From a virus: a DNA stretch of 24,028 nt. The translations under genes and the position numbers were made by a program. The stretch spans positions 1 through 24,028 of the IMG/VR virus record IMGVR_UViG_3300042328_000235; one strand, written 5' to 3'. Numbering within the stretch: the stretch's first letter is position 1; every line of letters begins with the position of its first letter. The notes under the pieces were generated by a model, which saw nothing but the letters and a program-made list of their open reading frames with translations, ran no database searches and was not told the DNA's origin. Below are positions 4,466 to 22,060 of the stretch, piece by piece.

Positions 4466-4655
4466 AAAGGGGCAGGGATTCTTCATCCCTTGCCTCGACA
4501 CGGACTCTGTCCGTGAACTAGGGCTGCGCAAGGCAGTCCTTTGCCGCGTACTAGACGCCCGTGCTAAGACGGGCGTCTACGAAGGCTTTACTGGGGTCTT
4601 CTTCTTTCGGTTGCCTGATAGAAAGCTTCGGCCTCACGATTCTGCGCCGCCTTGA
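4425..4655 (+). CDS. Small unassigned phage protein, convergent with the late block
   Basis: The protein has 76 residues from ATG 4425, overlapping the last 41 nt of the primase-helicase in another frame, with a weak GGA 8 nt upstream. The N-terminal 62 residues have a compact pattern (IHFPWEKVEKGQGFFIP, then a GL-rich helix, then GVYEGFTGVFFFR) that resembles small uncharacterised proteins of phage replication blocks; that resemblance is from memory. The last 23 codons overlap the 3' end of the giant minus-strand gene, so the tail after FFFRLP may be dispensable. Three inverted repeats lie inside the coding region. No function is claimed. An alternative is that the region is mostly a structured convergent junction and the frame is open by chance, but the residue pattern argues for a real gene. 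Confidence 0.6.
   Translation: MKVSSIHFPWEKVEKGQGFFIPCLDTDSVRELGLRKAVLCRVLDARAKTGVYEGFTGVFFFRLPDRKLRPHDSAPP
4471..4515. repeat. Two inverted repeats just after the primase-helicase gene
   Basis: GGCAGGGAT (4471-4479) pairs with ATCCCTTGCC (4485-4494) with one bulged T across a TCTTC loop. It starts 6 nt after the primase-helicase stop. Next, CACGGAC (4499-4505) pairs perfectly with GTCCGTG (4509-4515) across TCT. Neither is followed by a T run. They could slow or end plus-strand transcription with a protein factor, or fold the mRNA of the overlapping small gene. Confidence 0.4.
4552..4579. terminator. 11-bp perfect palindromic hairpin at the convergent junction
   Basis: TAGACGCCCGT (4552-4562) and ACGGGCGTCTA (4569-4579) form a perfect 11-bp stem with a 6-nt loop. 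On the minus strand it begins 8 nt past the TAA of the giant late gene, which is where a terminator would sit. There is no T run on either side, so a factor-independent terminator is not proven. Because the stem is symmetrical it would act on both strands. It also lies within the small plus-strand gene. Confidence 0.4.
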
Positions 4656-7600
4656 TGCGTGCGATCAGCTTGTCTTTTTGCTCTGTTGAGAGCCTTGAGT
4701 CAGCTCGCACCGTACGCTCATCGGTGAACATCTCCCCCATAGACTTCTTGAAGCCTCCAGCCATATCGGCTTGGGCCAACAGCGACGCATACTCCTGCGC
4801 CCATGCTCTGGCTTCGGCTTTCTTACCGCGTCTCTCCAAATCCTCATAGCCTTTTTGCGCTCTGACGACTTCTTCCATGCGCTCGTAAGCGCGGTCGATG
4901 ATGAAGCGGCCTTCGGTTGACTGGAACAGACCGCCAATGAACGGCAACTTGCTGGCAGAAGAAGACGCTTTCTCGCCTTCCGTTGATGAGCGCAGTACTG
5001 GGTCTAGCATGTGCAGGGCTGACAGCCCCAAGTTGCTGGTATAGCTACGCACAAAATGCTCAATCAGCAGGGGCGACACGCCCACGGCTCCGGTAAACGA
5101 ACCCAAAGCTTTGGCCACTTCAGTCGTCTCTTCACGATAGCGCATAGCGGCAGGCAAATCTTTCTCTCTTGCCGACTCGATCGGTCCGTATGCCGTAGCG
5201 CCAATGGACGCTTCGATAAGCGGTTTGCCGGCCACAGGCACAACGCCGGGAGTGGACTGCCACAATAGCATGCCCAGACCTTTGATTGCTTCCTTGGCCT
5301 TAGTGTCTCGCCGCGCCACATCCAAAATAGCTTCTGGCAACGCCTTGAACAAGATACCCACCTCGTACGGAATTGGAATCTTTAGTGGTTCTTTGACGTT
5401 TGGAATGTACACAAACCAATTGCCATACTTAACTTCAGGCGGTAGTTTGCGGTAATCTTCGTTGTCTTCCATCATCAAAGCGTAAGCCATGGTTCCGGCC
5501 ATCAACATTAGGCCACGCGCTTTGATCTTGCGCTGAATCTCCAAACGCTCAGCAAAAGGTGTTGTGCCTTTAAATGAACGATACAAGACATCCAAGCCCT
5601 GAATCTGCGCGTTAAAGAACGGAACCATGGTGCTGAGCATTTGCATGCTTGGCGACAATCCACGGCGGCTAAAGTTCTGAGACTCAAACGCACGGAACTG
5701 CGCTTGCGCTTCTGTAAAGCCTTTCTTCAACGAATCTTCGTAGATAGTTGCGCGTGTAGCCGCATCAGACTGTAGCGCTACGGTGTCCAGCATGCCCAGC
5801 ATCTTGTCCCACTTGCCGCGGCCTGTGCCGATGTCCTGCAAGAACTTCTGCATGTCTTTCTCGTCGCCAGTGTAAATGTTGCTACTAATAGCCAAACCAC
5901 GCATCAACGCTTCTTCGGCAGGGCTGCGACCAGAACGCATCTTAGCTAACTGACGCAGAGCATTAACCACAGGGACGCCATCTACGCCACCAACAATAGC
6001 CGCATTGACTGGGTCACGAATCAATTGGCGAATAGCGTAGGCAGGGCTACGAGTTACAAACTTACGCACCCAGTCAGCAGGCACCCCCATCATGCGTACG
6101 ATCTCTGGGATGGTAGTCTTGATACCTTCCATACCTTTGACAATCAAATGCGCTGGGATACCAAACGTGTCGGAGTCAATGACAGCAAAGTAATCTTCGC
6201 CATCAACTTTGTAACGCACAACATCTGTGCCAGCGGGGCCGCTGCCCTTGCCGATCTTGGATGCAAACCCCGCCTTATACAGCGCATCCGATGTCTTGTG
6301 AGTAGCGTTGTTTCTCAAACCGGCACGGGACAACATGAATGTGTTCTGTACAGCGCTGGTCAAGATCGGGAGGATGGTTTTTTCATCGCCCAACATGCGT
6401 TGCAAGTCTGGGTTCTCTTTGATGTTGCCAATACGAATACTGCTTTCCTTGTCGGTAAACAGTTTGACCTCGTTGTTCTCAATACGGTAGAACGGAACGA
6501 ATGGCGTCTTCTTCAGGCGAGCGCCTTCTTCTTTGGTGATAAACCCGCACTGGACAATAAAGTCTATGAGACCGTTGTTGTACTGTTTGTACACCGCCTT
6601 GGCGGCGTCAATGCTTTTCTTGGCTGCTGGGTTTGCTGCCAGTGTAGCTTTGTCTTTCAAGTACTCAGCTTTAGCAGCCGCAGGGTCAGAAGACAATAAA
6701 CGTGCCCAGCCGTTAGGCGTAGCTTCCGCACGCTCACCAGCAATCTGCACTGTCAAAAGACGTTCAGCATCCGCACCCAACCCCGCTTTGGCGGCATCGT
6801 CTAAATGTTCAGTCATTTGAACAAGGTTAGCGCCCCCTGATGATTGGTAGCGGTACTCTGTGCCCAAAGCGGTTTTGTCTGCCACGATCGACACAGGGCC
6901 GTGCGTAATAAACTGACCTGCTGTTTGCGTAGTGTTGTCAGCCAAACGCATAAAGTACTGCGCTTGGAACGCTTCAGTAGAAGACAGCTTGCCAGCACCT
7001 TCTCCCGCCACAATAGCGGCATCCGCAGCAGCCAGCTTGTCAACTAACTGTACGCGGCCACCTAGACCAAAAAAGTTTTCTTTAAGGGTCTTGGTCTTAC
7101 CTGCTTCTTGGCCAACAATAACAGATGTGCTGGCAGGCGCTTTGGTACGGAAAACAGACGGCGCGTTGATCTGGTCAACCATCTGGAACTTCTGCGCAGG
7201 CATGTACAGCGCTTCGATGTTCTTGGTAGCCACATCTGACGTAACTTGGCCAGTTTTAAAGCCAACCAACCGCAGCAGTGCTTGGAAGAAACGCGACAAC
7301 ATGTTGCCACCAAACCAAGGCTTCTTATTGATCTGGTCACGGAAGTCTTTATTAGACTGCACCTCAGACGCAAACTCAGCCACGTTAGTCAAGCCGTACT
7401 CGTTGACAAGCGCCTTGTCTTTCTTCAGTTGATTGAACATCGCGTTCAATTCATTGCGGGCGTTGAGTTGTTCTTTAGTCAGATCGCTGGCAGGCATTAC
7501 CAACCCACGCAAAGATGCGGCGTGGGTAACCTCGTGGATCAGGTTCTCTTCTGTCAACTCCCCGGGTCTAAACGACACTGTGTTGGTCACGTTGTTGTAG

Positions 7601-10600
7601 AACGCTGGCACAGGATTGCCGTAAACATCTGTAAGGTTTGGATCAATAACCACTTTAGTGCGCAACAGCATGTTGACCACGTTCTTAGCGTTCTGACGAA
7701 TAAAGTCAGAGCTACCATTCTGCGCCACATCGTTTACAGCATCAAGCAAGCGCCCATCTTCAATGGCTTCTTTAGCGTTATCGGACAGCTGGGCCTGTTC
7801 CATCTCCGTGTACTGGGTTGCAGCACCTTGGATCGGGCCTTCTTCGTCAATCTCTGGCAGTGTGGCAGCTTCCTGCTTGGCAGTAGCGGCATCAATCGCG
7901 GCTTCGACTTCTGCTTGCGCTCCGCCTTTGAGGGCTTTAGATGCACGAATGTCACGGGCGTTCTTGTATGCTTCTTCAGCCGCGTCGCTTCGTTGGTTTG
8001 CAAGATCAAGGGCGTCCTGTGCCAGCTCTTTGGTAGCGGGCGTCTTGGCTTCGTCAAAGTCTTTCTGGGCTTTCTCCAGTTCAATGACCGACTGACGGAA
8101 GCGCTCACGAGCGGCAATAATTTCAATCGTCGGGCCTTGACCCAACAACCGCTCACCTTCAGCCAACTGCGCAGCAATTTGCTCTTCAGTTAAACCTTCG
8201 GTAGCTTCTGCGTAAGCGGTCTCCAACTTGGCACGGCTGGCTTCTGTAGCGCCATCCAAACGCGCCTTGACTGTAAACAAATGAACTGCGTTAGCGGCCT
8301 CTTGGGACAGGCCATCTGCACGAAGCTTAGTCACGCCAGATTGACGCACGCGTTTAGCGCCCATCATGTTACGAACAACAGGGCCTTCCTTACGGGCAGG
8401 CAAACGCATACCTTCCACAGCAGTTGGTTGCGGTGCGCCGGGCTGTTCTACCTCACGCTCAACAATCGGAGCAACGGAGTACAGGGTGTCGATATTGGAT
8501 TCAAGTTTGTCGTACTCGGCCTGATATTTTTCAATGTCGGCGGTGTTGTTTTTCTCTTTGGCTTTACCCAAATTAGTGTCCGCTGTAGCCAGCTCACGCT
8601 TGAGGCGGTTTAGCTCAGCAGTCATCAATGGATCAGATGTGTCCCGTGTAAAGCGGCGGGTATCGTACCCAGCGCCAGACTTAGCTTTCTCAAGACGCTC
8701 CTTCTCTGCTTTGGCCGCATCAAGTGCCTTTTGTTTCTCGGCAGCACCAGCATTTCTCTCAGCTTGAATTTTGCGTTCTTCTTCGCGAGCTTTAGTTTCC
8801 GCCTCTACGCGAGCCTTCTCGGCTTTGGCTGCCGTGGCTTTAGCTTCTTCAATTTGTTTGAGAAGTGGGGACTCTACGTTCAAAGCTTTAGCCAAACGAG
8901 CGCTTGTGTTTACAAGAGCTTCGCGCAAGTCCTGCCCAATCAACTTGTTCAAAGTCAGATTGTCTCGACGTGCGGCCAAGTAAGCCAACTCCGCCGCTTG
9001 TGTCTTAGGTAACAACTTTTCAGTAGCACTAGCGGCACGAGTCATAGCGCCATCTAAGCGGCCAAACTCCAAACCGGAAGCCGTAGCAGGCAAGTTGTCA
9101 ATTGCTTTACGTGCCCCCTCATAAGCAGTTTGGGCGGCATCGCTAAGTTTCTTAGCAGCCATGTACTCGCTACGAGCTTCTTTTTCGGCAAAGTCAATAC
9201 TAGCGGCGTAGTCTTTTGGCAAAGGCCCCTGCATCTTGGCTATTACTGGAGACGGCTGTTTCTGTTTATCAGCCCCACGCTCTTGCAGTACCGCATCAAT
9301 TTTTGCCAACTCGTCGTCAATTGCTTTAACGTTTTCTTCAGAGAACGTGCCTTTGATAAGCGGCTCAAGCTCCTGTATGACCAGTTGTTGCTGTCTAATT
9401 TCTTGTGTAACACCAGACTCAGCTAACTTGCCACGAGCAGTTGTGAGCTCTCTGCCAGACATCCGCACAACTTCAGTTGCTTTTGACAGCGCTTTCTGCG
9501 CTTTAACAACCTCTGGCACTTTTGCCACGGGGGCAACTGACTGTTTCTTAATGTCCCAGCTTTCGGCTTTCTTTGGCTTTGTAAGAATCTTGCCTTTGAT
9601 GTTTTTAAACTCACGGGCCTCACCCGCTTTAAGGCGTTCGGCTTCGATCTGGCCAGCAGGCGCTTTTGTAACGGCAGCTTGCTGTTGCTCTTGCATACGT
9701 TGGCGACGCTCTAAATCACGCAAGACGGCTTCTGCTTTAGGTACTGCGCGTTGGGCTTGGTCTAGCTCTTGTTTTACGGCTTGCAAGTCAGCGCGGCCTT
9801 CTTCAGACAACGTTGCCAACATGTCAAAATAACGTGCGTTTTGTTCGCGTGATCTGGCATCAGACTCGAGCTTTTGCAAAAGCAAGTTATCAGGCGTTTG
9901 GGCAAGCTCTTCCCTAAAAGCTTTGGCTTCGTCTTTAAATCTCTTTGCTACCTCACTGAAGTACTGTGGGTTGTCTTGCATCGCTTCCGTATTGCGCACA
10001 GCTTTCTTCAGTTCTTCAACCTTAGTCTCTGCCGCCACAAACGCAGTGCGTGCTTCTGTCAGTTCTTCAGGCGTAATCTCACGCAGTGTGGGCGCAAGGC
10101 GCTGGGGCTGGACGCCGGGCAATTCTTTTTGTTTACCTGCTGGCGCAGTAACTTCCTCTTCCGTACCGGCGGCAATTTTTGCTTTCAGATCATCACGGGC
10201 TTTTTCTAACTGCGCGCGAATGTTGCCGGCACCGGATTGAACCGTCAGACCTTTAAGCTGGCGCTCAATGTTGCCAAGCTGTTGTTGCATCTCCGCCATC
10301 TCAGGCGTGACTTCTTTGGCTAGCTTGTTTTCTTCTTCAATTGAAGGCTTAGAAGTGCGTAACTTTCTCAATTCTTGGCCAAGGTCTTTGCGGCGGTCTT
10401 TAAGTTCTGCCAACGCAGCCATCTTGGCTTCGTCTGTTGGACGGCCAGCCTTCTGTACTTTCTCATTTACAAGGCGCAACTCACGGGTCACAGCATCAAT
10501 GCGGTTAGCGGTGCCCTCTGTACGCTCAATAGGAAGCTGGCGCTGGCCTCTAATCAGTTCGCGGTCTTCACCAATGACTTGGCTATAGCGCTCGACTACG

Positions 10601-13359
10601 GCATCAGACTTGTCTTCCCAACCTGTTTTGGCCTGCAGCTTTTTAAGTTCAACCGCCAATGTGTCGCGGCGTTTCTCCATTGCCCCCAGCGCTTCTGCTT
10701 GTTCCGCAGAAGTTGGCTGGCCAATCTCTTTGATTTCTTTGTCCAGCTTGCGCAGCTCTACGTTTGCGCGTGTAAGGTTGTCGACAGTTTTTTGAATGTC
10801 GTCTGTAATGGTTAACAGTTGCTCACGCAAACCAAGCCCGGCTTCACGCTCAAGCGCTTTACCGTTGGCCAAAATTCTGTTGATATTGACAAGGCGTGTC
10901 GCGTTGAAGATAAACGTGTTTGTGCTCTTGCGTTGCTCAGTAATGTCCTTGACTTTGACCGCGTCATACAGATCAATCAGATCGTCGTGCATCTTTGCAC
11001 GTAACTCTTTGGCTTCTTTGGCCATAGCCGCACGATTGGTCTGCTTATCAAACCCTTCTTGTGCAGGTTTCAGCTTGGGTAAATAGTAGTCAAGCAACGC
11101 TGAGACGTTCTCGTCCGTGCGCTCACCAATAAGATTCTGTGCCAAAGGCGTTGTGTCTTTGTAGCGATCAGCCGTCTCCATACGGCGGTTTAAGTTATCC
11201 AAAGCTTTGCGCTTTACGCCCAACTCAAACGTTTCACGGCTAGGTAGCATGGCGCCTTTAACGCCTTCTTTTTTAGCCAACTCTTTGATGTCTTTTTCCA
11301 ACGTTTCTTTAAGCTCGTCGCGGTCGTTGCGGTACTCAATGTTGGCAGGGTCTTGCTTTAACTTGTTCCAGTCCTGCTCGCTCTTATCAAACAGCGCCAA
11401 CAGTCCACGGGCTTCTTCCAAGTCTTTGTCAAAAATTGCCTGCTCAACAGGTGACCGTCCTTTGTTCTTCTCGGCAATAGCGCGGAGTCTTTCAATCTCA
11501 GCTTCAACGCTCTCCCGTGTTTCACGGGCTTCTCTTGCGCCTTCGTCAATCTGAGCGGCAAACAAGTCGTCTGTTGGTACGTTGCGGAACTGATCGCCTT
11601 CCATTAGTGTGGGCACGGCCTCCAGCTCTTTGAGGCGGGGGATTAGTTTAGCAATCGCTTCATCGTCGCCAAGCTCTTGGTAACGGGCAACTTTCTTGCG
11701 CAAGTCTTTAATTTCAACGTCACGAGATGCAACGTCAGTTTGCTTGGGGGCTTCGGCAACAAAAGGTTTTAGTTCGTCAAGCTGCGCTAGCGCATCTTTA
11801 TTTTGTTTGATACTGTTGACAAGGCGCTCCATGTCGTCAGTACTAGTGGCCGCTTGCAACTTAGTGCGCAAACCTTCAATCTGTTTGGTGACCGTGTCCC
11901 GCATAGCCGCATAGCTTGTCGGTGTTGGGGCCATTGATTGAAATTGCTTTTGCAAGTCAAACTGCTGATTGGTAAGCGCTTGAATCTGTGCCTGATCGCC
12001 AGTCTTTGTAGCTTCGGCAATCTGTGCGTTAAGACCTTTGATCTGGGTGTCGAGCGTACGCAATTGGCCAACAGGAGACTGATCCCTTGCTTCAGGGATA
12101 GCGCCAAACAAATCCATCTGTGCGCCGGGCACTTTGGCAGCTTCTTCAATTGCAGTTTTGTTGGCTGTCTCTTTGGCACGCTCATCAATAGCTTTCTTGG
12201 CTTGACGGTACTCTTCAACTGTGCCTGTGTACTCATCAGATTTGCGCAACTCTTTGATCTGAGTGCGCGCTTCTTGTTTGTCTGCTACTGCGGCCAGATC
12301 ACCTTCGGCGGGTCTGCCTTTAATACGCGCCAACAAGTCCGCTTCTTGCTTTTGCAAGTCAGCGTAGCGAGTCTGAATCTCGTCCAAGTACTCAGGGGTC
12401 TGTCGGTACGCGGCTTTCTCTTGCTCCAAGCGCTGCTTCTCGGCTTCTTGTGCTTGCACTTGCTTGGCTTGTTCTGCACGAGCTTCTTCTGCTTGTTGGG
12501 TTTTAATCCGCCCACGCTCAATGTAACGACCTGCAGGGGCTAATGCGCCACCCAACACAGCGCCACCAATCAAACTATCCCAATACTCGTCACGAGCTTG
12601 TGCGTCTGTAAGTTTTAAACCAGCTTGTAAACGCTCAAGGAATTGCTGTGCTACTTCTGTAGTACTCTCTGCGCCAATAGCTTTACCAGTAGCTTTGGAG
12701 TAGTCCCCCAACATTTTTGTCATGCCTTGCTTGGCAATCTGTTCAGCGGCGTCCTGAGAAAGTTCTTTACCTGCCGCACCAAAAATACCCCGAATAGCAG
12801 GGAACATTTTGAAAGACAGTAAGTCAAGGGCACCTGCAACAGAACCTGCGCCAGCAGCGGCGGCTAGATTGGTTTCTTCTAGGGGTCGGCCTTCCTCAGT
12901 CTGGCGTTTTAGGAACTGGCCTGTAAACTGAGCGCCTGATGCCAATGCGCCAAGACCGCCCGCAACAATAGCGGGAGCTCCGCCTAACGTAGCCGCAGCG
13001 CCTGCTGCTAGTGGAGCCGCAACGTACGGCAAAGAACCGCCAAGCAACTCAGTAAATTTGGTAACTGGCGCTTCTGTCCAGCCTTTTTCTGTGGGCTTAA
13101 ACGTACGTCGTTGGTACGCTTCTTCCTCTGCCATGATCTGTTTGGCACGTTCGGTGTCCATTGCACCTGTACGGCCTGCAAGCGCAGCGGCAGAACTTTT
13201 TAAGCCAGAAATGCCTGCCTTGACAGCAGGAACAAAACCTTCTTCGGGGGCGCCCCCTATACCAAGCTGCTCTCTAAGTATCTCCGCTGCTTTTTCTTTG
13301 GATACGCTGTCTGGAAACTCAACGGTTCGTCCATCAGGCAAAGCAACGGTATAGCTCAT
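4588..13359 (-). CDS. Giant polyvalent virion protein: coiled coil, zincin-like site, LPD38 domain
   Basis: The protein has 2923 residues, starting 3 nt after the previous stop. It opens with a short phage-type beta-helix module (YTVALPDGRTVEF, residues 1-33). Ala/Gly-rich hydrophobic stretches follow at about 105-148, 164-195 and 262-278. From about 282 to 1830 it is almost entirely Glu/Lys/Gln/Ala-rich, predicted coiled coil. A globular part holds LIHEVTH (H1942, E1943, H1946), a zincin-type zinc site with E1995 or E1999 as possible third ligand. Residues about 2400-2600 (SPAYAIRQLIRDP to VPFFNAQIQGLDVLYR) match LPD38 of the large polyvalent proteins, followed by a hydrophobic segment near 2612-2630. 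Such proteins are thought to be packaged and injected with the DNA, like T7 gp16 or N4 vRNAP, and to act early in the host. The injected role and the protease activity are inferred. Confidence 0.9.
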   Translation of the reverse strand: MSYTVALPDGRTVEFPDSVSKEKAAEILREQLGIGGAPEEGFVPAVKAGISGLKSSAAALAGRTGAMDTERAKQIMAEEEAYQRRTFKPTEKGWTEAPVTKFTELLGGSLPYVAAPLAAGAAATLGGAPAIVAGGLGALASGAQFTGQFLKRQTEEGRPLEETNLAAAAGAGSVAGALDLLSFKMFPAIRGIFGAAGKELSQDAAEQIAKQGMTKMLGDYSKATGKAIGAESTTEVAQQFLERLQAGLKLTDAQARDEYWDSLIGGAVLGGALAPAGRYIERGRIKTQQAEEARAEQAKQVQAQEAEKQRLEQEKAAYRQTPEYLDEIQTRYADLQKQEADLLARIKGRPAEGDLAAVADKQEARTQIKELRKSDEYTGTVEEYRQAKKAIDERAKETANKTAIEEAAKVPGAQMDLFGAIPEARDQSPVGQLRTLDTQIKGLNAQIAEATKTGDQAQIQALTNQQFDLQKQFQSMAPTPTSYAAMRDTVTKQIEGLRTKLQAATSTDDMERLVNSIKQNKDALAQLDELKPFVAEAPKQTDVASRDVEIKDLRKKVARYQELGDDEAIAKLIPRLKELEAVPTLMEGDQFRNVPTDDLFAAQIDEGAREARETRESVEAEIERLRAIAEKNKGRSPVEQAIFDKDLEEARGLLALFDKSEQDWNKLKQDPANIEYRNDRDELKETLEKDIKELAKKEGVKGAMLPSRETFELGVKRKALDNLNRRMETADRYKDTTPLAQNLIGERTDENVSALLDYYLPKLKPAQEGFDKQTNRAAMAKEAKELRAKMHDDLIDLYDAVKVKDITEQRKSTNTFIFNATRLVNINRILANGKALEREAGLGLREQLLTITDDIQKTVDNLTRANVELRKLDKEIKEIGQPTSAEQAEALGAMEKRRDTLAVELKKLQAKTGWEDKSDAVVERYSQVIGEDRELIRGQRQLPIERTEGTANRIDAVTRELRLVNEKVQKAGRPTDEAKMAALAELKDRRKDLGQELRKLRTSKPSIEEENKLAKEVTPEMAEMQQQLGNIERQLKGLTVQSGAGNIRAQLEKARDDLKAKIAAGTEEEVTAPAGKQKELPGVQPQRLAPTLREITPEELTEARTAFVAAETKVEELKKAVRNTEAMQDNPQYFSEVAKRFKDEAKAFREELAQTPDNLLLQKLESDARSREQNARYFDMLATLSEEGRADLQAVKQELDQAQRAVPKAEAVLRDLERRQRMQEQQQAAVTKAPAGQIEAERLKAGEAREFKNIKGKILTKPKKAESWDIKKQSVAPVAKVPEVVKAQKALSKATEVVRMSGRELTTARGKLAESGVTQEIRQQQLVIQELEPLIKGTFSEENVKAIDDELAKIDAVLQERGADKQKQPSPVIAKMQGPLPKDYAASIDFAEKEARSEYMAAKKLSDAAQTAYEGARKAIDNLPATASGLEFGRLDGAMTRAASATEKLLPKTQAAELAYLAARRDNLTLNKLIGQDLREALVNTSARLAKALNVESPLLKQIEEAKATAAKAEKARVEAETKAREEERKIQAERNAGAAEKQKALDAAKAEKERLEKAKSGAGYDTRRFTRDTSDPLMTAELNRLKRELATADTNLGKAKEKNNTADIEKYQAEYDKLESNIDTLYSVAPIVEREVEQPGAPQPTAVEGMRLPARKEGPVVRNMMGAKRVRQSGVTKLRADGLSQEAANAVHLFTVKARLDGATEASRAKLETAYAEATEGLTEEQIAAQLAEGERLLGQGPTIEIIAARERFRQSVIELEKAQKDFDEAKTPATKELAQDALDLANQRSDAAEEAYKNARDIRASKALKGGAQAEVEAAIDAATAKQEAATLPEIDEEGPIQGAATQYTEMEQAQLSDNAKEAIEDGRLLDAVNDVAQNGSSDFIRQNAKNVVNMLLRTKVVIDPNLTDVYGNPVPAFYNNVTNTVSFRPGELTEENLIHEVTHAASLRGLVMPASDLTKEQLNARNELNAMFNQLKKDKALVNEYGLTNVAEFASEVQSNKDFRDQINKKPWFGGNMLSRFFQALLRLVGFKTGQVTSDVATKNIEALYMPAQKFQMVDQINAPSVFRTKAPASTSVIVGQEAGKTKTLKENFFGLGGRVQLVDKLAAADAAIVAGEGAGKLSSTEAFQAQYFMRLADNTTQTAGQFITHGPVSIVADKTALGTEYRYQSSGGANLVQMTEHLDDAAKAGLGADAERLLTVQIAGERAEATPNGWARLLSSDPAAAKAEYLKDKATLAANPAAKKSIDAAKAVYKQYNNGLIDFIVQCGFITKEEGARLKKTPFVPFYRIENNEVKLFTDKESSIRIGNIKENPDLQRMLGDEKTILPILTSAVQNTFMLSRAGLRNNATHKTSDALYKAGFASKIGKGSGPAGTDVVRYKVDGEDYFAVIDSDTFGIPAHLIVKGMEGIKTTIPEIVRMMGVPADWVRKFVTRSPAYAIRQLIRDPVNAAIVGGVDGVPVVNALRQLAKMRSGRSPAEEALMRGLAISSNIYTGDEKDMQKFLQDIGTGRGKWDKMLGMLDTVALQSDAATRATIYEDSLKKGFTEAQAQFRAFESQNFSRRGLSPSMQMLSTMVPFFNAQIQGLDVLYRSFKGTTPFAERLEIQRKIKARGLMLMAGTMAYALMMEDNEDYRKLPPEVKYGNWFVYIPNVKEPLKIPIPYEVGILFKALPEAILDVARRDTKAKEAIKGLGMLLWQSTPGVVPVAGKPLIEASIGATAYGPIESAREKDLPAAMRYREETTEVAKALGSFTGAVGVSPLLIEHFVRSYTSNLGLSALHMLDPVLRSSTEGEKASSSASKLPFIGGLFQSTEGRFIIDRAYERMEEVVRAQKGYEDLERRGKKAEARAWAQEYASLLAQADMAGGFKKSMGEMFTDERTVRADSRLSTEQKDKLIARIKAAQNREAEAFYQATERRRPQ

Positions 13360-16129: not shown

Positions 16130-18229
16130 TTATGCGGGAAGATGTTTCTCAGAGCGGGAGTTGGCGGCTACTTTGCCTTTACCAACAGTCTTGCCCCGAG
16201 CTTTTTGAATACGATCCATCATGGCGTACAGCTTACGTGCGCCAGCTTCTGTAGAGCCGTTACCCAGCTCAGACACGATACGTGCAGGCACTACGAACTC
16301 ACCATCAGCAAGACGTGCGGGGTGCTTCTTACGGCCAATCGTAGCAGGGATGCTGTCAGACACGCCGTCTCCGGGACCCTTGAGCAAACGGCCACCATCA
16401 GAGTAACCGCCAAGTGCACCAAGACCACCAAGGGCGTAGCGGGGCATCATGCCGCCGTTAGCGTAGCCCATCAAACCACCGTTGGCATTACCGGCGTAAT
16501 CGTAGCGGTCTTCGTCAATATTATTGTCATCGCCTACAAACCCGTCGTAACCGCCACCATCGTCATTGCCAATGTATGTTGGTTCGCCAAGGTATGAGCC
16601 AAACGCGTCTGGCAGGCCTTGTTGTTGCACACTGTCTGTTTCGCCAGTGTACGTGTTGTTACCGCTGTTTAGCGAGTTGTCACCCGCCATAGAGCCGTCG
16701 TAGTATCCCGAGTTGTCAACGTTTTGCCAATCTTGAACTTCTTCAGTTGTGTCGCTGTAGTAAGGCTCGACAGGTGTCTCTGGCATGCGATCAATAATTT
16801 CTTGAATACCTGCAGTTGTACCGTCATCTACAGGCGCTTCAGGCGCTTCAGGCAGCCTATCAATAATTTCTTGAATACCTGCAGTTGTACCGTCATCTAC
16901 AGGTGTCTCTGGCATGCGATCAATAATTTCTTGAATACCTGCAGTTGTACCGTCATCTACAGGCGCTTCAGGCATCCGGTCAATAATTTCTTGAATGCCC
17001 GGAGTTGTGCCGTCATCTTGAATTGTTGGCGTAGGCACACGATCTTCAACAGGGATATTTGGGTTTGCTGGCGCGGGCACAAAGCCTGAATACGTAGGTG
17101 AGGGATCAGTATCGGATACGGCGTTACCTACGCTTGCACCTCCCATAATGGGGCCAGCGCCTCCGCCAACACCGCCACCGCCACCACCGCCTGTAACTGG
17201 AGTCGTAGTCATAGACGTAGAAGGTGTTGTGGTTGTAGCTGGAGCGTTTGTGTTTGAAACAACGGGTCTGGGCGCAATTGCTTGAATTCCCGCGGGGGCA
17301 GCGCTTGCAGTATTACCCATCAGATAGTCATACGCAGCCTTAGACTGGCCAGACAGGGTGTTGTATCTAGCATAAGGATCAGTTTCGCCGCCTTCAGCAA
17401 GCGCCACAATACCGCCTGTGGCCATGCCGGGTGGGAGCTGCTGTCCTAAACCTGCGGGAGGAGGAGCCTGCTCTTTACGAATAAAGTCAGGGAACTGACG
17501 AGCGCCCCACTCACTGGCCAACACGGGGTCCATTGCTTTGACTGTGCGGGTATTAGCGTCGTATTGAAATGGGCGAATGTAGCCGGGGGTGGCAGCAGGC
17601 ATTTTGGTCGTTGTTGGGACCATGGCGTCAGCAATAAACGGAGACGCGGCGGCAAGGCCCGCCTTCCAATTGTCTTTGGCAAACTGTCCAAGCGCGGAGG
17701 GGCTATCAGTAACAGCTTTAAATCCAGCTCCAATTTTGTCTAGGTTTGATGTAGCCGCAGCGTTGGCGGCGGGGGCAGTGGCGGCATTTTGAAAACCTAA
17801 AGCCTGTGCTTGAGCATCTGTCAAAGAGGTTGCCAAATTAGCGCCAGTACCAGCACCAACTTTAGCACCGGCACCCATAAAGGCTTCGCCTATACCTGCA
17901 CCACCATAAGCACCAAGACCGGCCATCAAGCCTTTAGACAAACTTCCAGTAGCCAAAGCAGTAACGCCGCCAACTGCTAATCCCGCGCCTGCGGCACTCA
18001 TCAAACCAAAACCAGCGGGGCCTAATGCAAAGCCTGCAATCATGGGCAAGAGCTTCTTCAAGAAGCCCGCTTCAGGCAAACCTGTGTCAGGGTTGATGGT
18101 CAGTGAACCGCCATTTTTCATGGCCAACGCCTGCAGACTCGCCACTTCTTCGGGAGTCATGTGAACAAGCATGGAGTCAGAGCCACGCCCTTTTGTGGCC
18201 ATGTGGTTGGCTAATACGTGAAGGCTCAT
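16130..18229 (-). CDS. Low-complexity virion protein with tandem repeats and conserved C-terminal module
   Basis: The protein has 699 residues; GAGAGG sits 5 nt before ATG. Residues 54-125 are Gly/Ala-rich and hydrophobic (KKLLPMIAGFALGPAGFG onward), a likely membrane-active or transmembrane region. The middle is Pro/Thr/Ala-rich with a poly-Gly run at 347-358. Residues 406-488 carry four tandem copies of a 20-residue unit. Asp/Gly/Tyr-rich sequence follows, then Gly-Gly motifs (NGGMMPRYALGG, 591-602). The last 85 residues contain GPGDGVSDSIPATI, PARLADGEFVVPARIVSELG and a basic helix, a module I recognise from many phage structural proteins of unknown role. Together with the next two genes it probably belongs to the ejected internal proteins or tail. 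No catalytic residues are evident. Confidence 0.85.
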   Translation of the reverse strand: MSLHVLANHMATKGRGSDSMLVHMTPEEVASLQALAMKNGGSLTINPDTGLPEAGFLKKLLPMIAGFALGPAGFGLMSAAGAGLAVGGVTALATGSLSKGLMAGLGAYGGAGIGEAFMGAGAKVGAGTGANLATSLTDAQAQALGFQNAATAPAANAAATSNLDKIGAGFKAVTDSPSALGQFAKDNWKAGLAAASPFIADAMVPTTTKMPAATPGYIRPFQYDANTRTVKAMDPVLASEWGARQFPDFIRKEQAPPPAGLGQQLPPGMATGGIVALAEGGETDPYARYNTLSGQSKAAYDYLMGNTASAAPAGIQAIAPRPVVSNTNAPATTTTPSTSMTTTPVTGGGGGGGVGGGAGPIMGGASVGNAVSDTDPSPTYSGFVPAPANPNIPVEDRVPTPTIQDDGTTPGIQEIIDRMPEAPVDDGTTAGIQEIIDRMPETPVDDGTTAGIQEIIDRLPEAPEAPVDDGTTAGIQEIIDRMPETPVEPYYSDTTEEVQDWQNVDNSGYYDGSMAGDNSLNSGNNTYTGETDSVQQQGLPDAFGSYLGEPTYIGNDDGGGYDGFVGDDNNIDEDRYDYAGNANGGLMGYANGGMMPRYALGGLGALGGYSDGGRLLKGPGDGVSDSIPATIGRKKHPARLADGEFVVPARIVSELGNGSTEAGARKLYAMMDRIQKARGKTVGKGKVAANSRSEKHLPA
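16766..17014 (-). repeat. Four tandem 60-bp units inside the 699-residue gene
   Basis: Residues 406-488 consist of four copies of a unit DGTTAGIQEIIDRMPE-[A/T]PVD. The third copy is three residues longer (an extra APE) and the first has DGTTPG. At the DNA level the copies are nearly identical over the GIQEIID part, so they arose by recent duplication. The unit pairs a short amphipathic helix with a Pro-rich acidic hinge. Confidence 0.95.
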
Positions 18230-18267: not shown

Positions 18268-18911
18268 GTTGGTAGCGCAGAGACAAATGAAAGTGTGGCT
18301 ACGATGGAAGCAGTTGACGGTTTAGTTGGCGTGCCCGAAGCAGGGTATGTTTGGATTGTTACGTCCGCATTTGTAGTTGACCAGTATATTTGAACGTGGT
18401 CGCCCGCATTCATGTTTAGGAAATAGTTCCAGCCTTTGATATCGTGAAACGGGACACCCGCACTTTTTCTAGCGGGTAGGCCAACTAAACCAGTTGAGCC
18501 AGTGATGTCTGCGTTGTTCTGCTTTAGCCAAATAAACACGTCTTGGGGGGCGTTATCCAAGTTTTGCAACTGCACACTAAACTGCAAGTTGTATACACCT
18601 GCATATTCCACAGTAATTTTAGAGTTAGAAACAACTGACACCCCGTTTGAGAAGTCTGTGGTATTTAACGTCATCAGCGTAGCGGTGTTAACTGTGGTCG
18701 TATGGTCTGTAAAATCCGAAAACGCTCCATACGGAAACGCCAAATACTTACCACCCGCATTACCTGTAATCTCTGTAAGCGCATTCTGTAATTGGTTGAA
18801 GTACAAGCGCAAGATGTTGGTAAACTGATCCTGATACCTACGCTCGTACTGCTCCGTCCCCAATGGTAGATTAGGTACAGCAGGGTTAATAAGGCGATTG
18901 CTGTTAGCCAT
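18264..18911 (-). CDS. C1q/TNF-like beta-sandwich virion protein
   Basis: The protein has 215 residues. ATG shares its A with the stop of the upstream gene (TGATG), and GGAAG lies 6 nt before it. A helical N-terminus (EQYERRYQDQFTNILRLY) is followed by a beta-rich domain from about 65 to the end: TTVNTATLMTLNTTDFSNGV, then GVYNLQFSVQLQN, VFIWLKQNNADI, WNYFLNMNAGDHVQIYWSTT and a final TLSFVS strand. This is the order of strands in the C1q-like jelly-roll proteins common in phage genomes. They usually form trimeric knobs on tail or head fibres and bind surfaces. It lies directly after the hub-like gene, so a tail decoration or receptor-contact role is likely. The ligand cannot be read from the sequence. 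Confidence 0.85.
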   Translation of the reverse strand: MANSNRLINPAVPNLPLGTEQYERRYQDQFTNILRLYFNQLQNALTEITGNAGGKYLAFPYGAFSDFTDHTTTVNTATLMTLNTTDFSNGVSVVSNSKITVEYAGVYNLQFSVQLQNLDNAPQDVFIWLKQNNADITGSTGLVGLPARKSAGVPFHDIKGWNYFLNMNAGDHVQIYWSTTNADVTIQTYPASGTPTKPSTASIVATLSFVSALPT

Positions 18912-20989
18912 CAGCGTCTTCCGTCCGCGCGAATATCAATACGGGGAGCGCCCAACTGCCAAGCGGTATTAACTTGATTGGAACTAATCTTAAAGATCAT
19001 CTGACGCCCACGAAAACGTGTGTAAATCTGACCCGTAAACTCTTCTGTAATGTTGTACGTACTGCTTGAGGCCACCGGCTGGCTTGCATCACTTGTTACA
19101 CCCGAGCCTGAGTTAGACAAGCCAAGCAGTTCCATTGTCACTGTAGCCGCAGTGCCAGAGGGGGAGTTCGTAGAGTTTTCAAATGTCAAGTCGGGCAAGA
19201 TGCGCCACACAAAACCAAAATTGTGGCCGTCACCAATATCAAACTCAGACGACGCAATGTACGCATTAAGCGGTAAAACTGCGGCGGTTTCGTTGTCGTT
19301 TAGACCTGTTTCATGCGTAACCAAATTAGAACTGTACGTTGCTGCAATCGGTGTTGGCAATAGCCCTGAATCAAGCCAAGCAGTACGCGCCATGGTTCCG
19401 TAGTACCAGATTTTCTCGACGTAGTTGTAAATCACATACTTGTCTACAGTCGTGCTGCTGCCAGAACAGTAGAACCACCAGACTTCATTGAAGCCTTCGT
19501 TAGTGCCGCAGAAAATCTGAAGCGTTTGGTCTGGGTTTAGGTCTTGGAAAATGTAGCGACGCAAGTCGCAATTAAGCGTTTGTATACGGCCATCGTATGC
19601 GTAGAACTTGTCCACGCCCATCCAGAAAATAATACCTGAAGCAATCACAGCCGCGTTGGGGCTGATGATAGAGATGTTGTCACCCAAAAGCTGAGACGCC
19701 CAGACATACGGAGGGCCAAGGTACTGGAGTGAATACGCGCTTGAGTCAGTAAACACCACAATCTCTTGACGGGCCTGCACAGTCGTAATGATCTGGGAGC
19801 CGTGGGATAGTCGGGTAAACCCTGCCTGATTAGTTGGGTCTGGTGTCCAGTTATAGGGATCGTTCTGTCCTGACCAGCGAATCAACATTGGGTCAAGCGT
19901 AGTCTGGCCGTAGTCGTTTGTGCCAAACACCATAACAAAGCGTGAAGCATCTGAGACAGTCAGCGTATTTTGAACAACTGGCGCATCAACAATGTTTGAG
20001 ATGTAAACGCCCGAGCCAGTAGATGTGGTGCTGACTTCGTTACCCGCCGCGTCAAGAAGACCAAAAGTCAAGCCGTCAACACTGAACGCATAGTACGTAG
20101 TTGCCACAACAATCCCGGTTGGCAAAGATGTCGTAGCGGCAAACTGAAGCGCAGCGCCTTCGGTAAATGCAACCGTGGAAGTCACGACAGTAGGCACACC
20201 CGTCACAGCGCTGTTGGTAAACGTTACATTCCCGCCCAGCGTGTTCAAAGCTACGCCTCGGCTAGACAAGCCTGCGGTGGCATCCCAGTAATATAGCCCG
20301 CCGCCACGGGGACCAAACACAAGGTCTTCGCCGTAATTTATTTGACTCCAAAGCTGCAAAGCGCTTGTGCTTGTGCCGCCAGTGCCCCATACCCCATCTC
20401 CCCAAGCCCCAGCGCCCCAACCAGTCAAAGGAACAGCGTAAGCAGGGCCAGCATTGATTTGATAAGCGGCAACGACAGCGGAGCCGCCATACGAGCCTGC
20501 AGGAATAGCCGAGGGTACTGTGATTGTGTAAGAGTCAAGGCTTACAACTGTAAGTTGATACTCAGCGTTCCATGTAGAAGCGTATGTGCCCGTAGCACCG
20601 CTGAATGTGACAAACGATCCAGTAGTTGCACCGTGGGCAATAGAAGTCACTGTGACTGTAGTTGTTCCGGTAGCAGTAAAAGGATTTGTGCCCAGCGTTA
20701 CTGTTGATCGAATAGGCGTGATGTTGTTATATATGCCGCCCTTTTCAATATAAAACTTTGTGTTTGTGCCAACACCAACCAAATTTAAAAAGCCAAGCGT
20801 CACCCAGTTCCACAATGAGCGGCACACACCGTTATACGTGTACGGAGATATTTGTTCCCAGCCGCCAATTACTTCGGGATTACCCTGACGGAAACGGATT
20901 TTGTCGCACTCATACCAGCCACCCTCAGTGGTGTACCGCGTATTCTCCCGGTTGACGCCGGGTTTGAACAGGATTTTTTGTAATGGCAT
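18911..20989 (-). CDS. Tail-hub/stabilisation-like structural protein
   Basis: The protein has 692 residues; AGGA lies 7 nt before ATG. The N-terminus (PGVNRENTRYTTEGGWYECD, then KIRFRQGNPEVIGGW) is a signature I recognise from many podovirus-type structural proteins. Residues 96-185 form a beta-rich insert of the phage Ig-like type (TATGTTTVTVTSIAHG, GSFVTFSGATGTY). The rest has repeating W/Y-rich strands (LVFGPRGGGLYYWD, MLIRWSGQNDPYNWTP, SAYSLQYLGPPYVW, NEVWWFYCSG) that suggest a beta-propeller. P22 gp10, the packaged-DNA stabilisation/tail-hub protein, has such a propeller, so a hub role is a reasonable inference, though direct homology was not tested. It is followed by the C1q-like gene through a 1-nt overlap. 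Confidence 0.85.
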   Translation of the reverse strand: MPLQKILFKPGVNRENTRYTTEGGWYECDKIRFRQGNPEVIGGWEQISPYTYNGVCRSLWNWVTLGFLNLVGVGTNTKFYIEKGGIYNNITPIRSTVTLGTNPFTATGTTTVTVTSIAHGATTGSFVTFSGATGTYASTWNAEYQLTVVSLDSYTITVPSAIPAGSYGGSAVVAAYQINAGPAYAVPLTGWGAGAWGDGVWGTGGTSTSALQLWSQINYGEDLVFGPRGGGLYYWDATAGLSSRGVALNTLGGNVTFTNSAVTGVPTVVTSTVAFTEGAALQFAATTSLPTGIVVATTYYAFSVDGLTFGLLDAAGNEVSTTSTGSGVYISNIVDAPVVQNTLTVSDASRFVMVFGTNDYGQTTLDPMLIRWSGQNDPYNWTPDPTNQAGFTRLSHGSQIITTVQARQEIVVFTDSSAYSLQYLGPPYVWASQLLGDNISIISPNAAVIASGIIFWMGVDKFYAYDGRIQTLNCDLRRYIFQDLNPDQTLQIFCGTNEGFNEVWWFYCSGSSTTVDKYVIYNYVEKIWYYGTMARTAWLDSGLLPTPIAATYSSNLVTHETGLNDNETAAVLPLNAYIASSEFDIGDGHNFGFVWRILPDLTFENSTNSPSGTAATVTMELLGLSNSGSGVTSDASQPVASSSTYNITEEFTGQIYTRFRGRQMIFKISSNQVNTAWQLGAPRIDIRADGRR

Positions 20990-20997
20990 GGGCAGTC

Positions 20998-21474
20998 CTA
21001 GGATAAAAACACGGCCCGCTCGTCAATACGGCGATTCTGTAGCCCTTTGAGAATTTTACCCCCCGCCATGCAATATTTCAACAACTCTTCTGCTGCCCCT
21101 TCCATGTCACCACGCAGTACCTTTTGACGCAAGGTTGAACGCTGTAGAGTACCCAGCCCTACGTTGAAAGAAAAGGATACCAACGCATCAAACTGTCCTT
21201 GAGTAAGAGGCACAGGACAATAAGTAGCCACGCCTTTCTCAAAGCGAGCAAGATCTGCCCTAAGTATTGCATCTACTTCCTCCATTGAATATTTACGCAT
21301 GGCTTCTGCGGGTGGTGTAAACGCATCCCGCTGGTCTATCTTCAGCTTGCCCTGCTCTGGGAACATGACATGGCCGACCCCGATTGTCCACAACTTTGCA
21401 GGGCAACGGTACGGGTTTACCCTCACACCCTCATGGTGACGAATCATGTGTAAACACTTGTCTGAGATGTTCAT
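20998..21474 (-). CDS. Endolysin, GH24 (T4-lysozyme-type) muramidase
   Basis: The protein has 158 residues, the usual length for this family. It cuts the glycosidic bonds of peptidoglycan. The catalytic region at the N-terminus, HHEGVRVNPYRCPAKLWTIGVGH, follows the E-8aa-x-5aa-T spacing: E15, C24 and T30, so Cys stands where T4 lysozyme has Asp20. The later motif ALVSFSFNVGLG (95-106) and the C-terminal R-R-x-x-E segment also fit GH24. There is no signal peptide or N-terminal anchor, so export to the wall needs the holin encoded upstream. No Shine-Dalgarno is seen before ATG. Instead the start overlaps the stop of a 25-codon ORF, so expression is probably coupled. Confidence 0.93.
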   Translation of the reverse strand: MNISDKCLHMIRHHEGVRVNPYRCPAKLWTIGVGHVMFPEQGKLKIDQRDAFTPPAEAMRKYSMEEVDAILRADLARFEKGVATYCPVPLTQGQFDALVSFSFNVGLGTLQRSTLRQKVLRGDMEGAAEELLKYCMAGGKILKGLQNRRIDERAVFLS

Positions 21475-21548
21475 TTTGGTAAATTTAAAATTAAATAACC
21501 GCTAATAAACATAGTCAAAGCCATTTTTGTGTATATTAAATAAATCAT
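21471..21548 (-). CDS. Candidate 25-residue membrane microprotein between holin and endolysin
   Basis: ATG at 21548-21546 overlaps the holin TGA (21547-21545) as ATGA. The frame runs 25 codons to TGA at 21473-21471, which overlaps the endolysin ATG (21474-21472), again as ATGA. The peptide begins MIYLIYTK and continues with a second possible start, MALTMFISGYLILNLPK. It is almost wholly hydrophobic with one lysine in the middle and one at the end, which would suit a single short membrane span. A GGA lies 3 nt before the first ATG (weak). It fills what otherwise looks like a 70-nt AT-rich gap and explains why the endolysin lacks its own Shine-Dalgarno. It might modulate the holin or act as an antiholin, or be only a translational link. 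No homologue is known to me. Confidence 0.5.
   Translation of the reverse strand: MIYLIYTKMALTMFISGYLILNLPK
21490..21518 (-). promoter_or_regulatory. Weak candidate sigma70-type promoter before the endolysin
   Basis: Read on the minus strand, TTGACT (21518-21513) and TTTAAT (21495-21490) are separated by exactly 17 nt, each one mismatch from the consensus boxes. Transcription would start about 8 nt before the endolysin ATG, leaving no room for a ribosome site. The stretch is AT-rich and also codes for the candidate microprotein, so the match may be accidental. Confidence 0.22.
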
Positions 21549-22060
21549 TTTCCAAACGCCCGGCCACCAAAGTGGAACGCTATGATTGAAGCAAACAATG
21601 CTTGGGTGTCAGAGTCCCACAGCATCTCAGCCAACTCGGTGAATGGCACACCACGGCTCCAGCCGTAAGCAAACAGGCCGATGTCAATAAACAACAGCAG
21701 GAAGAAGAAGCCGTAGGTGATGACTGGGCGAACAGAAGCGCGAAGGTTCTTCATCCATTCGCTAGTGCCTTCGTTTAGGCTCATATCGTGGGCGTAGACA
21801 GCTTGCATCTCAGCTTGTTGGGCGCCAATCAAAATCTGCTTAGTGTTGGCTGCGCTTTCTGTTTCCAGTTGCTCAGATTTTATATGTTCAATACGTTCCT
21901 GTGCTTCAAAACCTGCTTTACGCAGTTCAAGCTCACGAGTGATTTGCATTTGGGCAAGATTTAACTCGTGCTTTTTATCCGCTCGGTCTTGGAAGAATTC
22001 CAAAATCTTGGGCAAACCGCCCATTAAAAACGAAATTAGCGTGGAGAGTAGTGTCAGCAT
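21545..22060 (-). CDS. Holin of the 3TM / gene-transfer-release type
   Basis: The protein has 171 residues, with AAAGGA 5 nt before ATG. A hydrophobic N-terminal segment (2-20) is followed by a long charged helix (about 23-105), then membrane span 2 (112-133, PVITYGFFFLLLFIDIGLFA) and span 3 (154-166). It ends with FHFGGRAFGK. The R-P before the second span, the W-x-x-D (148-151) and the FGGR-x-x-GK end are typical of the 3TM holin family named for gene-transfer-agent release. It makes the membrane lesion that lets the cytosolic endolysin reach the wall. It sits directly upstream of the microprotein and endolysin in one lysis cluster. Confidence 0.85.
   Translation of the reverse strand: MLTLLSTLISFLMGGLPKILEFFQDRADKKHELNLAQMQITRELELRKAGFEAQERIEHIKSEQLETESAANTKQILIGAQQAEMQAVYAHDMSLNEGTSEWMKNLRASVRPVITYGFFFLLLFIDIGLFAYGWSRGVPFTELAEMLWDSDTQALFASIIAFHFGGRAFGK

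Follow-up and report, generated by a model that had tools for sequence, protein, structure and literature searches.

The holin-endolysin junction

The window analyzed here is a 24,028-nucleotide stretch of viral DNA (IMG/VR record IMGVR_UViG_3300042328_000235) in which a holin-like gene and an endolysin gene flank a micro-ORF that is absent from the existing annotation (Table 1). Read along the minus strand, the junction is ...GGAAA ATGA TTTATTTAATATACACAAAAATGGCTTTGACTATGTTTATTAGCGGTTATTTAATTTTAAATTTACCAAA ATGA ACATC..., with one ATGA shared by the holin stop and the micro-ORF start (21548-21545), a second ATGA shared by the micro-ORF stop and the endolysin start (21474-21471), and 70 nt of spacing from holin stop to endolysin start. 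A first-pass annotation had proposed this micro-ORF from the sequence of the window, and its coordinates, its length and both 4-nt overlaps proved exact on re-inspection. The GC content of the micro-ORF is 21%, compared with approximately 50% in the surrounding DNA of the window.

Table 1. Features of the holin-endolysin junction in the window
Feature	Position	Strand	Description
Holin-like membrane protein gene	21545..22060	-	171 aa, C-terminus FHFGGRAFGK then stop, PHROG 6637
Micro-ORF	21471..21548	-	25 codons, MIYLIYTKMALTMFISGYLILNLPK then stop; predicted single-pass membrane peptide
74-nt segment	21475..21548	-	Present in the window, missing from direct-overlap relatives
AAATGA, holin stop/micro-ORF start overlap	21545..21550	-	Copy 1 of the segment-flanking repeat
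AAATGA, micro-ORF stop/endolysin start overlap	21471..21476	-	Copy 2 of the repeat
Endolysin (phage lysozyme)	20998..21474	-	158 aa; PF00959 and phrog_7 matches

The holin-like protein matches phrog_6637, a PHROGs family of unknown function, with an E value of 2e-20. Among its relatives, 19 of 43 match phrog_3427, annotated as "holin" (best E 6.7e-4), and PF11351 (GTA_holin_3TM) gives an E value of 0.45 for the window protein and at best 0.064 for the relatives. An AF2 model of the protein is all-helical, with a pTM of 0.36, and a fold search with this model returned nothing significant. The name "holin" is reasonable but unproven, given where the gene lies, the helices of the model and the weakness of the profile matches. 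The endolysin matches PF00959 (E 4e-37) and the phrog_7 endolysin family (E 3.6e-46), and at its N-terminus, MNISDKCLHMIRHHEG, no hydrophobic stretch or signal-anchor is visible.

Coding and selection in the micro-ORF

Shuffled inserts are open across 24 codons in 11% of cases and approximately one third of these would finish in the right phase, so that the same geometry arises by chance in approximately 4% of shuffled inserts. A single example alone would thus be unremarkable, and the significance of the micro-ORF comes from its relatives. An exact 25-mer search of IMG/VR returned eight contigs with the same insert, and diverged versions were found by degenerate searches. One of these searches used the holin end as its anchor and asked only that the ATG be followed by an Ile codon and then by a third codon beginning with T; codon 4 onward was therefore unconstrained, and conservation there is not built in. 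Including the window, 28 IMG/VR contigs, all of them metagenomic, carry the micro-ORF in nine nucleotide versions whose ORF GC content ranges from 21 to 47%. In all 28 loci the micro-ORF has exactly 25 codons, ATGA at both ends and no frameshift. A holin-independent pattern search recovered the same set, with 27 of its 28 matches lying directly after a holin-like gene and the remaining one being a chance match.

Ten residues (M1, I2, Y3, Y6, M9, T12, S16, Y18, I20 and L23) are invariant across the nine versions. In three independent close pairs, synonymous changes outnumber nonsynonymous ones by 17 to 9, where a synonymous share of 22-29% would be expected under neutrality, giving P values of 7e-6 under equal rates and 1.4e-4 with transitions favored threefold. 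The dN/dS between micro-ORF versions is mostly 0.05-0.3. Versions with 44-47% GC retain the same hydrophobic pattern, indicating that AT-richness does not account for the hydrophobicity. As judged from these substitution patterns, the micro-ORF is shown to be under purifying selection at the amino acid level, and it is almost certainly a real coding gene. The first-pass annotation had read it as a microprotein and had proposed that an alignment of relatives would reveal a conserved frame, length and hydrophobicity with an excess of synonymous changes; the nine versions bear out each of these and support that reading. It had also held that frameshifts, or direct abutment of the two flanking genes, in relatives would tell against the frame. 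No frameshift was seen in the 28 loci, whereas direct abutment was found in most relatives, making the microgene optional rather than unreal.

Across the versions, the predicted GRAVY is 1.03-1.65 and the predicted best 15-residue mean hydropathy is 1.73-2.40, and the product is probably a membrane peptide. Residue variability is helically periodic, with a best angle of 104 degrees, and approximately 2% of shuffles are equally strong at 100 degrees. Residues Y6, M9, T12, S16, I20 and L23 would cluster mostly along one side of a helix, and this conserved face suggests packing against another membrane helix. An ATG at codon 9 (window 21522-21524, minus strand) is invariant across the nine versions, and a 17-residue second product from such a dual start is conceivable.

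The peptide has no match in Pfam, PHROGs or NCBIfam. No relation to a known antiholin family was found in these collections, which is weak evidence for so short a peptide and so diverse a group as the antiholins. No version contains a cysteine, and thus none has the lipobox cysteine of an Rz1-like outer-membrane spanin. In GTDB species genomes an exact 24-mer had no match, and all five matches to the degenerate peptide pattern were due to chance, none being a 25-codon ORF after a holin; a host or prophage origin is therefore rejected. Isolate phages gave no tblastn match and only weak, AT-rich blastn matches.

Distribution and transfer of the microgene

In IMG/VR, holin and endolysin overlap directly in every one of the 80 nearest holin relatives (87-98% identical), by ATGA in 79 cases and by ATGATG in one. 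Likewise, when at least 120 contigs were taken in database order by their conserved holin 3' end, at least 99 further loci had a direct overlap. In a wider sample most loci overlap directly by ATGA, and in approximately 10% an unrelated gene of about 50 codons occupies the holin-endolysin slot; the IMG/VR collection is redundant, and these proportions of presence and absence are rough. A holin DNA tree built from 50 loci requires 13 changes in microgene presence, at least 10 of which are forced by well-supported branches. The direct-overlap neighbors in this tree were picked for nearness, which favors interleaving, but the forced-change count stands. The closest relative of the window on this tree (L004) is without the microgene. 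A holin protein tree of 201 rows requires 12 changes for the microgene versus 4 for the ~50-codon slot gene. The sister loci L142 and L303, with and without the microgene, respectively, have identical holin proteins, and no holin residues were found that change recurrently with microgene presence. Absence from most relatives, one of them with an identical holin, indicates that lysis works without the microgene, which by its distribution among these sequences is optional.

The window and two other loci, L081 and L082, carry identical 78-nt ORFs between holins that are 77-84% identical and endolysins that are 76-80% identical, and the tract of identity ends 2 nt before the ORF on its upstream side and 4-12 nt past it on its downstream side. 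L216 and L255 form a more extreme case, sharing an identical micro-ORF in a tract that extends 2 nt upstream and 1 nt downstream of it (holin 71%, endolysin 69% identical). The holin pS is 0.73 between the window and L081 and 0.70 between the window and L082, compared with a micro-ORF pS of 0 in both; with synonymous sites treated as independent, the chance of zero synonymous difference in the micro-ORF is approximately 1e-8 to 1e-7. In addition, the microgene of L149 is identical to that of L095, with a holin identity of 76%, and has 9 differences from that of L142, whose holin is closer (85%). Micro-ORF identity thus does not track holin distance, indicating that the history of the microgene differs from that of its flanks. 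From these comparisons, the microgene is very probably a transferable 74-bp cassette. Loci either have or lack the 74-nt segment in full, with AAATGA at its limits, and precise loss by deletion between the AAATGA repeats may have occurred alongside such movement between phages or in its place. It is unlikely that the microgene is a specialized mobile micro-cassette that enters and precisely leaves ATGA junctions via its AAATGA ends, restoring coupling and carrying a lysis-timing peptide; if it were, it would be among the smallest transferable protein-coding units.

Other genes were seen in the same slot. The ~50-codon gene (48-52 codons, MIWTLVLVTGINMNSILVVGYFEYEAACQKAAKEWRDLGYKVGCVQTQKK), found at L200:1552-1701(-) and about 80 other loci, is unrelated to the microgene and is joined by ATGA in 75 of 79 loci and by GTGA in 3. 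We considered whether it encodes a similar membrane protein; this was rejected, since the product is predicted to be soluble, with a beta-beta-alpha-beta fold (pLDDT 92.8) and two conserved cysteines. It has no significant PDB match. A 217-codon gene (MKTFVVRPELMFVGQVHGKKV...) lies between microgene and endolysin at L095:869-1522(+) and also in L138, L149, L153, L159 and L172. In these six subfamily-B loci it is ATGA-joined and 97-100% identical across holins that are 74-88% identical. It is possibly a driver of cassette transfer; it has no family, PDB or isolate-phage match, and the idea of a homing endonuclease likewise found no family or PDB match. Further single inserts starting on the holin ATGA are ORFs of 61 codons (MTRLLILVLLCILVAFHIFGC..., lipoprotein-like), 65 codons and 99 codons, in L316, L322 and L371.

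Coupling, function and rival readings

The first-pass annotation had pointed out that no Shine-Dalgarno sequence precedes the endolysin start (TTACCAAAATGA). This is correct but is not specific to the insert, as direct-overlap relatives (GGNAAATGA) likewise have none. Reporter work has shown that re-initiation coupling is nearly gone once the gap reaches approximately 20 nt (PMC10666635; see also PMC6728339). Given this loss and an endolysin without a Shine-Dalgarno sequence, inserting 70 nt of non-coding DNA should leave the endolysin uncoupled. We infer that an ATGA-ORF-ATGA insert keeps the coupling, suggesting a rule under which phages can accept a new gene at a coupled junction only as an ORF that ends in ATGA on both sides, a rule with which the joints of the ~50-codon slot gene also agree. 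In the mechanism that we propose, a ribosome finishing the holin gene would re-initiate at the first ATGA and translate the micro-peptide, and at the second ATGA it would terminate and re-initiate on the endolysin, so that only ATGA-ORF-ATGA inserts would be tolerated at this joint. The peptide would reside in the inner membrane, where its conserved helix face might contact the co-translated holin or itself and might shift the timing of lysis in an antiholin-like or accelerating manner; the contact and the shift in timing are the weakest steps. Taken as a whole, the reading of an optional, cassette-borne membrane microgene of the lysis operon, with coupling kept and an effect on lysis, is one that we hold with moderate confidence.

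From its position and overlap, the microgene may encode a partner of the holin, and its position and topology make a role like that of an antiholin, or in tuning lysis, plausible. That the microgene acts in lysis by tuning it is the leading but tentative assignment, and other late membrane functions rank close behind. It could be real cargo with another late role (superinfection exclusion, membrane depolarization or host transport) that was placed where ATGA-ended inserts are tolerated, a possibility that we take seriously while rating it below even. This junction seems to be a hot spot for insertions, and the slot also hosts the unrelated ~50-codon, 217-codon and 61-codon genes with the same ATGA joints; the predicted solubility of its common occupant indicates that the slot need not be lysis-specific, and the identity of the holin protein with and without the microgene also fits the cargo reading. 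However, in the holin-independent pattern search the microgene was found only directly after the holin-like gene and never elsewhere, and overlap coupling favors partners of one complex, overlapping gene pairs being enriched for subunits of the same complex (PMC10666635).

A different history, in which the microgene is ancestral and vertically inherited, is repeatedly lost via AAATGA slippage, and owes its DNA identity to nucleotide-level constraint with no transfer, would agree with subfamilies that broadly follow two main holin clades, with the ease of precise loss between 6-nt repeats, and with an unrooted tree on which gains and losses are indistinguishable. We consider it quite improbable, since versions with 4-7 synonymous changes (L090 and L142) indicate that the nucleotide sequence is not frozen, and since the L149 microgene matches that of L095 over that of L142. 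Very little credence is given to a purely nucleotide device, in which the peptide is irrelevant and the segment acts as a spacer or as a coupling element setting the holin:endolysin ratio, despite the exact ATGA joints and the endolysin start without a Shine-Dalgarno sequence. The synonymous excess and the conserved residues and hydrophobicity over 21-47% GC argue against it, no frameshifted natural versions that keep the joints were seen, and the insert has no unusual RNA fold (no better than shuffles, z 0.46), so that a role for RNA structure was rejected. The first-pass annotation had offered such a ratio-fixing device as an alternative, and this does not appear to be the purpose of the insert, because the ATGA overlap is there even in phages that lack the insert; on the sequences compared, the ends of the insert preserve existing coupling rather than create it. 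The reading that a random AT-rich insertion happens to be open, favored only by the ~4% of shuffled inserts with the same geometry, is refuted by the comparison of nine versions over 28 loci and carries practically no weight. A mobile promoter was also rejected: the TTGACT-17-TTTAAT before the endolysin in the window is missing from GC-rich versions and was not listed by a sequence scan, which found no terminator-like site in the insert either.

Several known systems resemble the microgene in part. Lysis cassettes contain antiholins and other holin-modulating small membrane proteins, such as lambda S107 and T4 RI. The microgene is like these in being a gene for a predicted small membrane protein beside a holin-like gene and probably co-expressed with it; unlike them, its 25-residue product comes from a separate, optional gene and shows no sequence relation to them that we could find. 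Releasins (Mu gp25/DUF2730; PMC9239132) are small transmembrane accessories of an endolysin system, as the peptide may be, but they act on signal-anchor-release endolysins, whereas the endolysin here is without a visible anchor and the DUF2730 releasin profile gave no match. Modular insertion at phage gene boundaries, by boundary-sequence or illegitimate recombination, is discussed in PMC3029335. As with morons, the microgene is an extra gene between genes that are adjacent in relatives, with sharp mosaic boundaries; unlike morons, the unit is 74 bp, has no promoter or terminator conserved across versions, and has ends that would keep coupling. The ultra-small mobile mycobacteriophage elements (MPME, 439 bp; PMC3029335) are also tiny sequence-identical units in different phages, but they have inverted repeats and varied sites, whereas the microgene unit occupies a single site, its only repeats are the direct AAATGA copies, and nothing points to self-mobility. 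Each joint has the -4 overlap of ATGA-coupled termination-reinitiation pairs (PMC6728339, PMC10666635); unlike in ordinary pairs, a gene has been inserted here that re-creates the overlap on either side of itself.

Small genes in phages, coupling through ATGA and mosaic insertion at the boundaries between genes are each familiar in kind, and what is unusual is the apparent sharp-edged movement of a 74-bp protein-coding unit with the overlap restored at both ends. A 25-codon ORF, below the size that most gene finders report, can evidently be a selected and, very probably, horizontally moving gene, and even a well-studied phage lysis operon still yields such a microgene. The natural close pairs with and without it (L142/L303 and L090/L336) make an effect on lysis timing directly testable.

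Three further ORFs of the window were noted. A 692-aa protein (18911-20989) resembles phage stabilization proteins, and a 699-aa ORF (16130-18229, minus strand) contains several near-identical tandem copies of DDGTTAGIQEIIDRMPE(A/T)PV. A 2923-codon ORF (4588-13359, minus strand) fills over one third of the window, and in this podovirus-like phage its product is likely to be either a large virion-internal protein or a polyvalent one.
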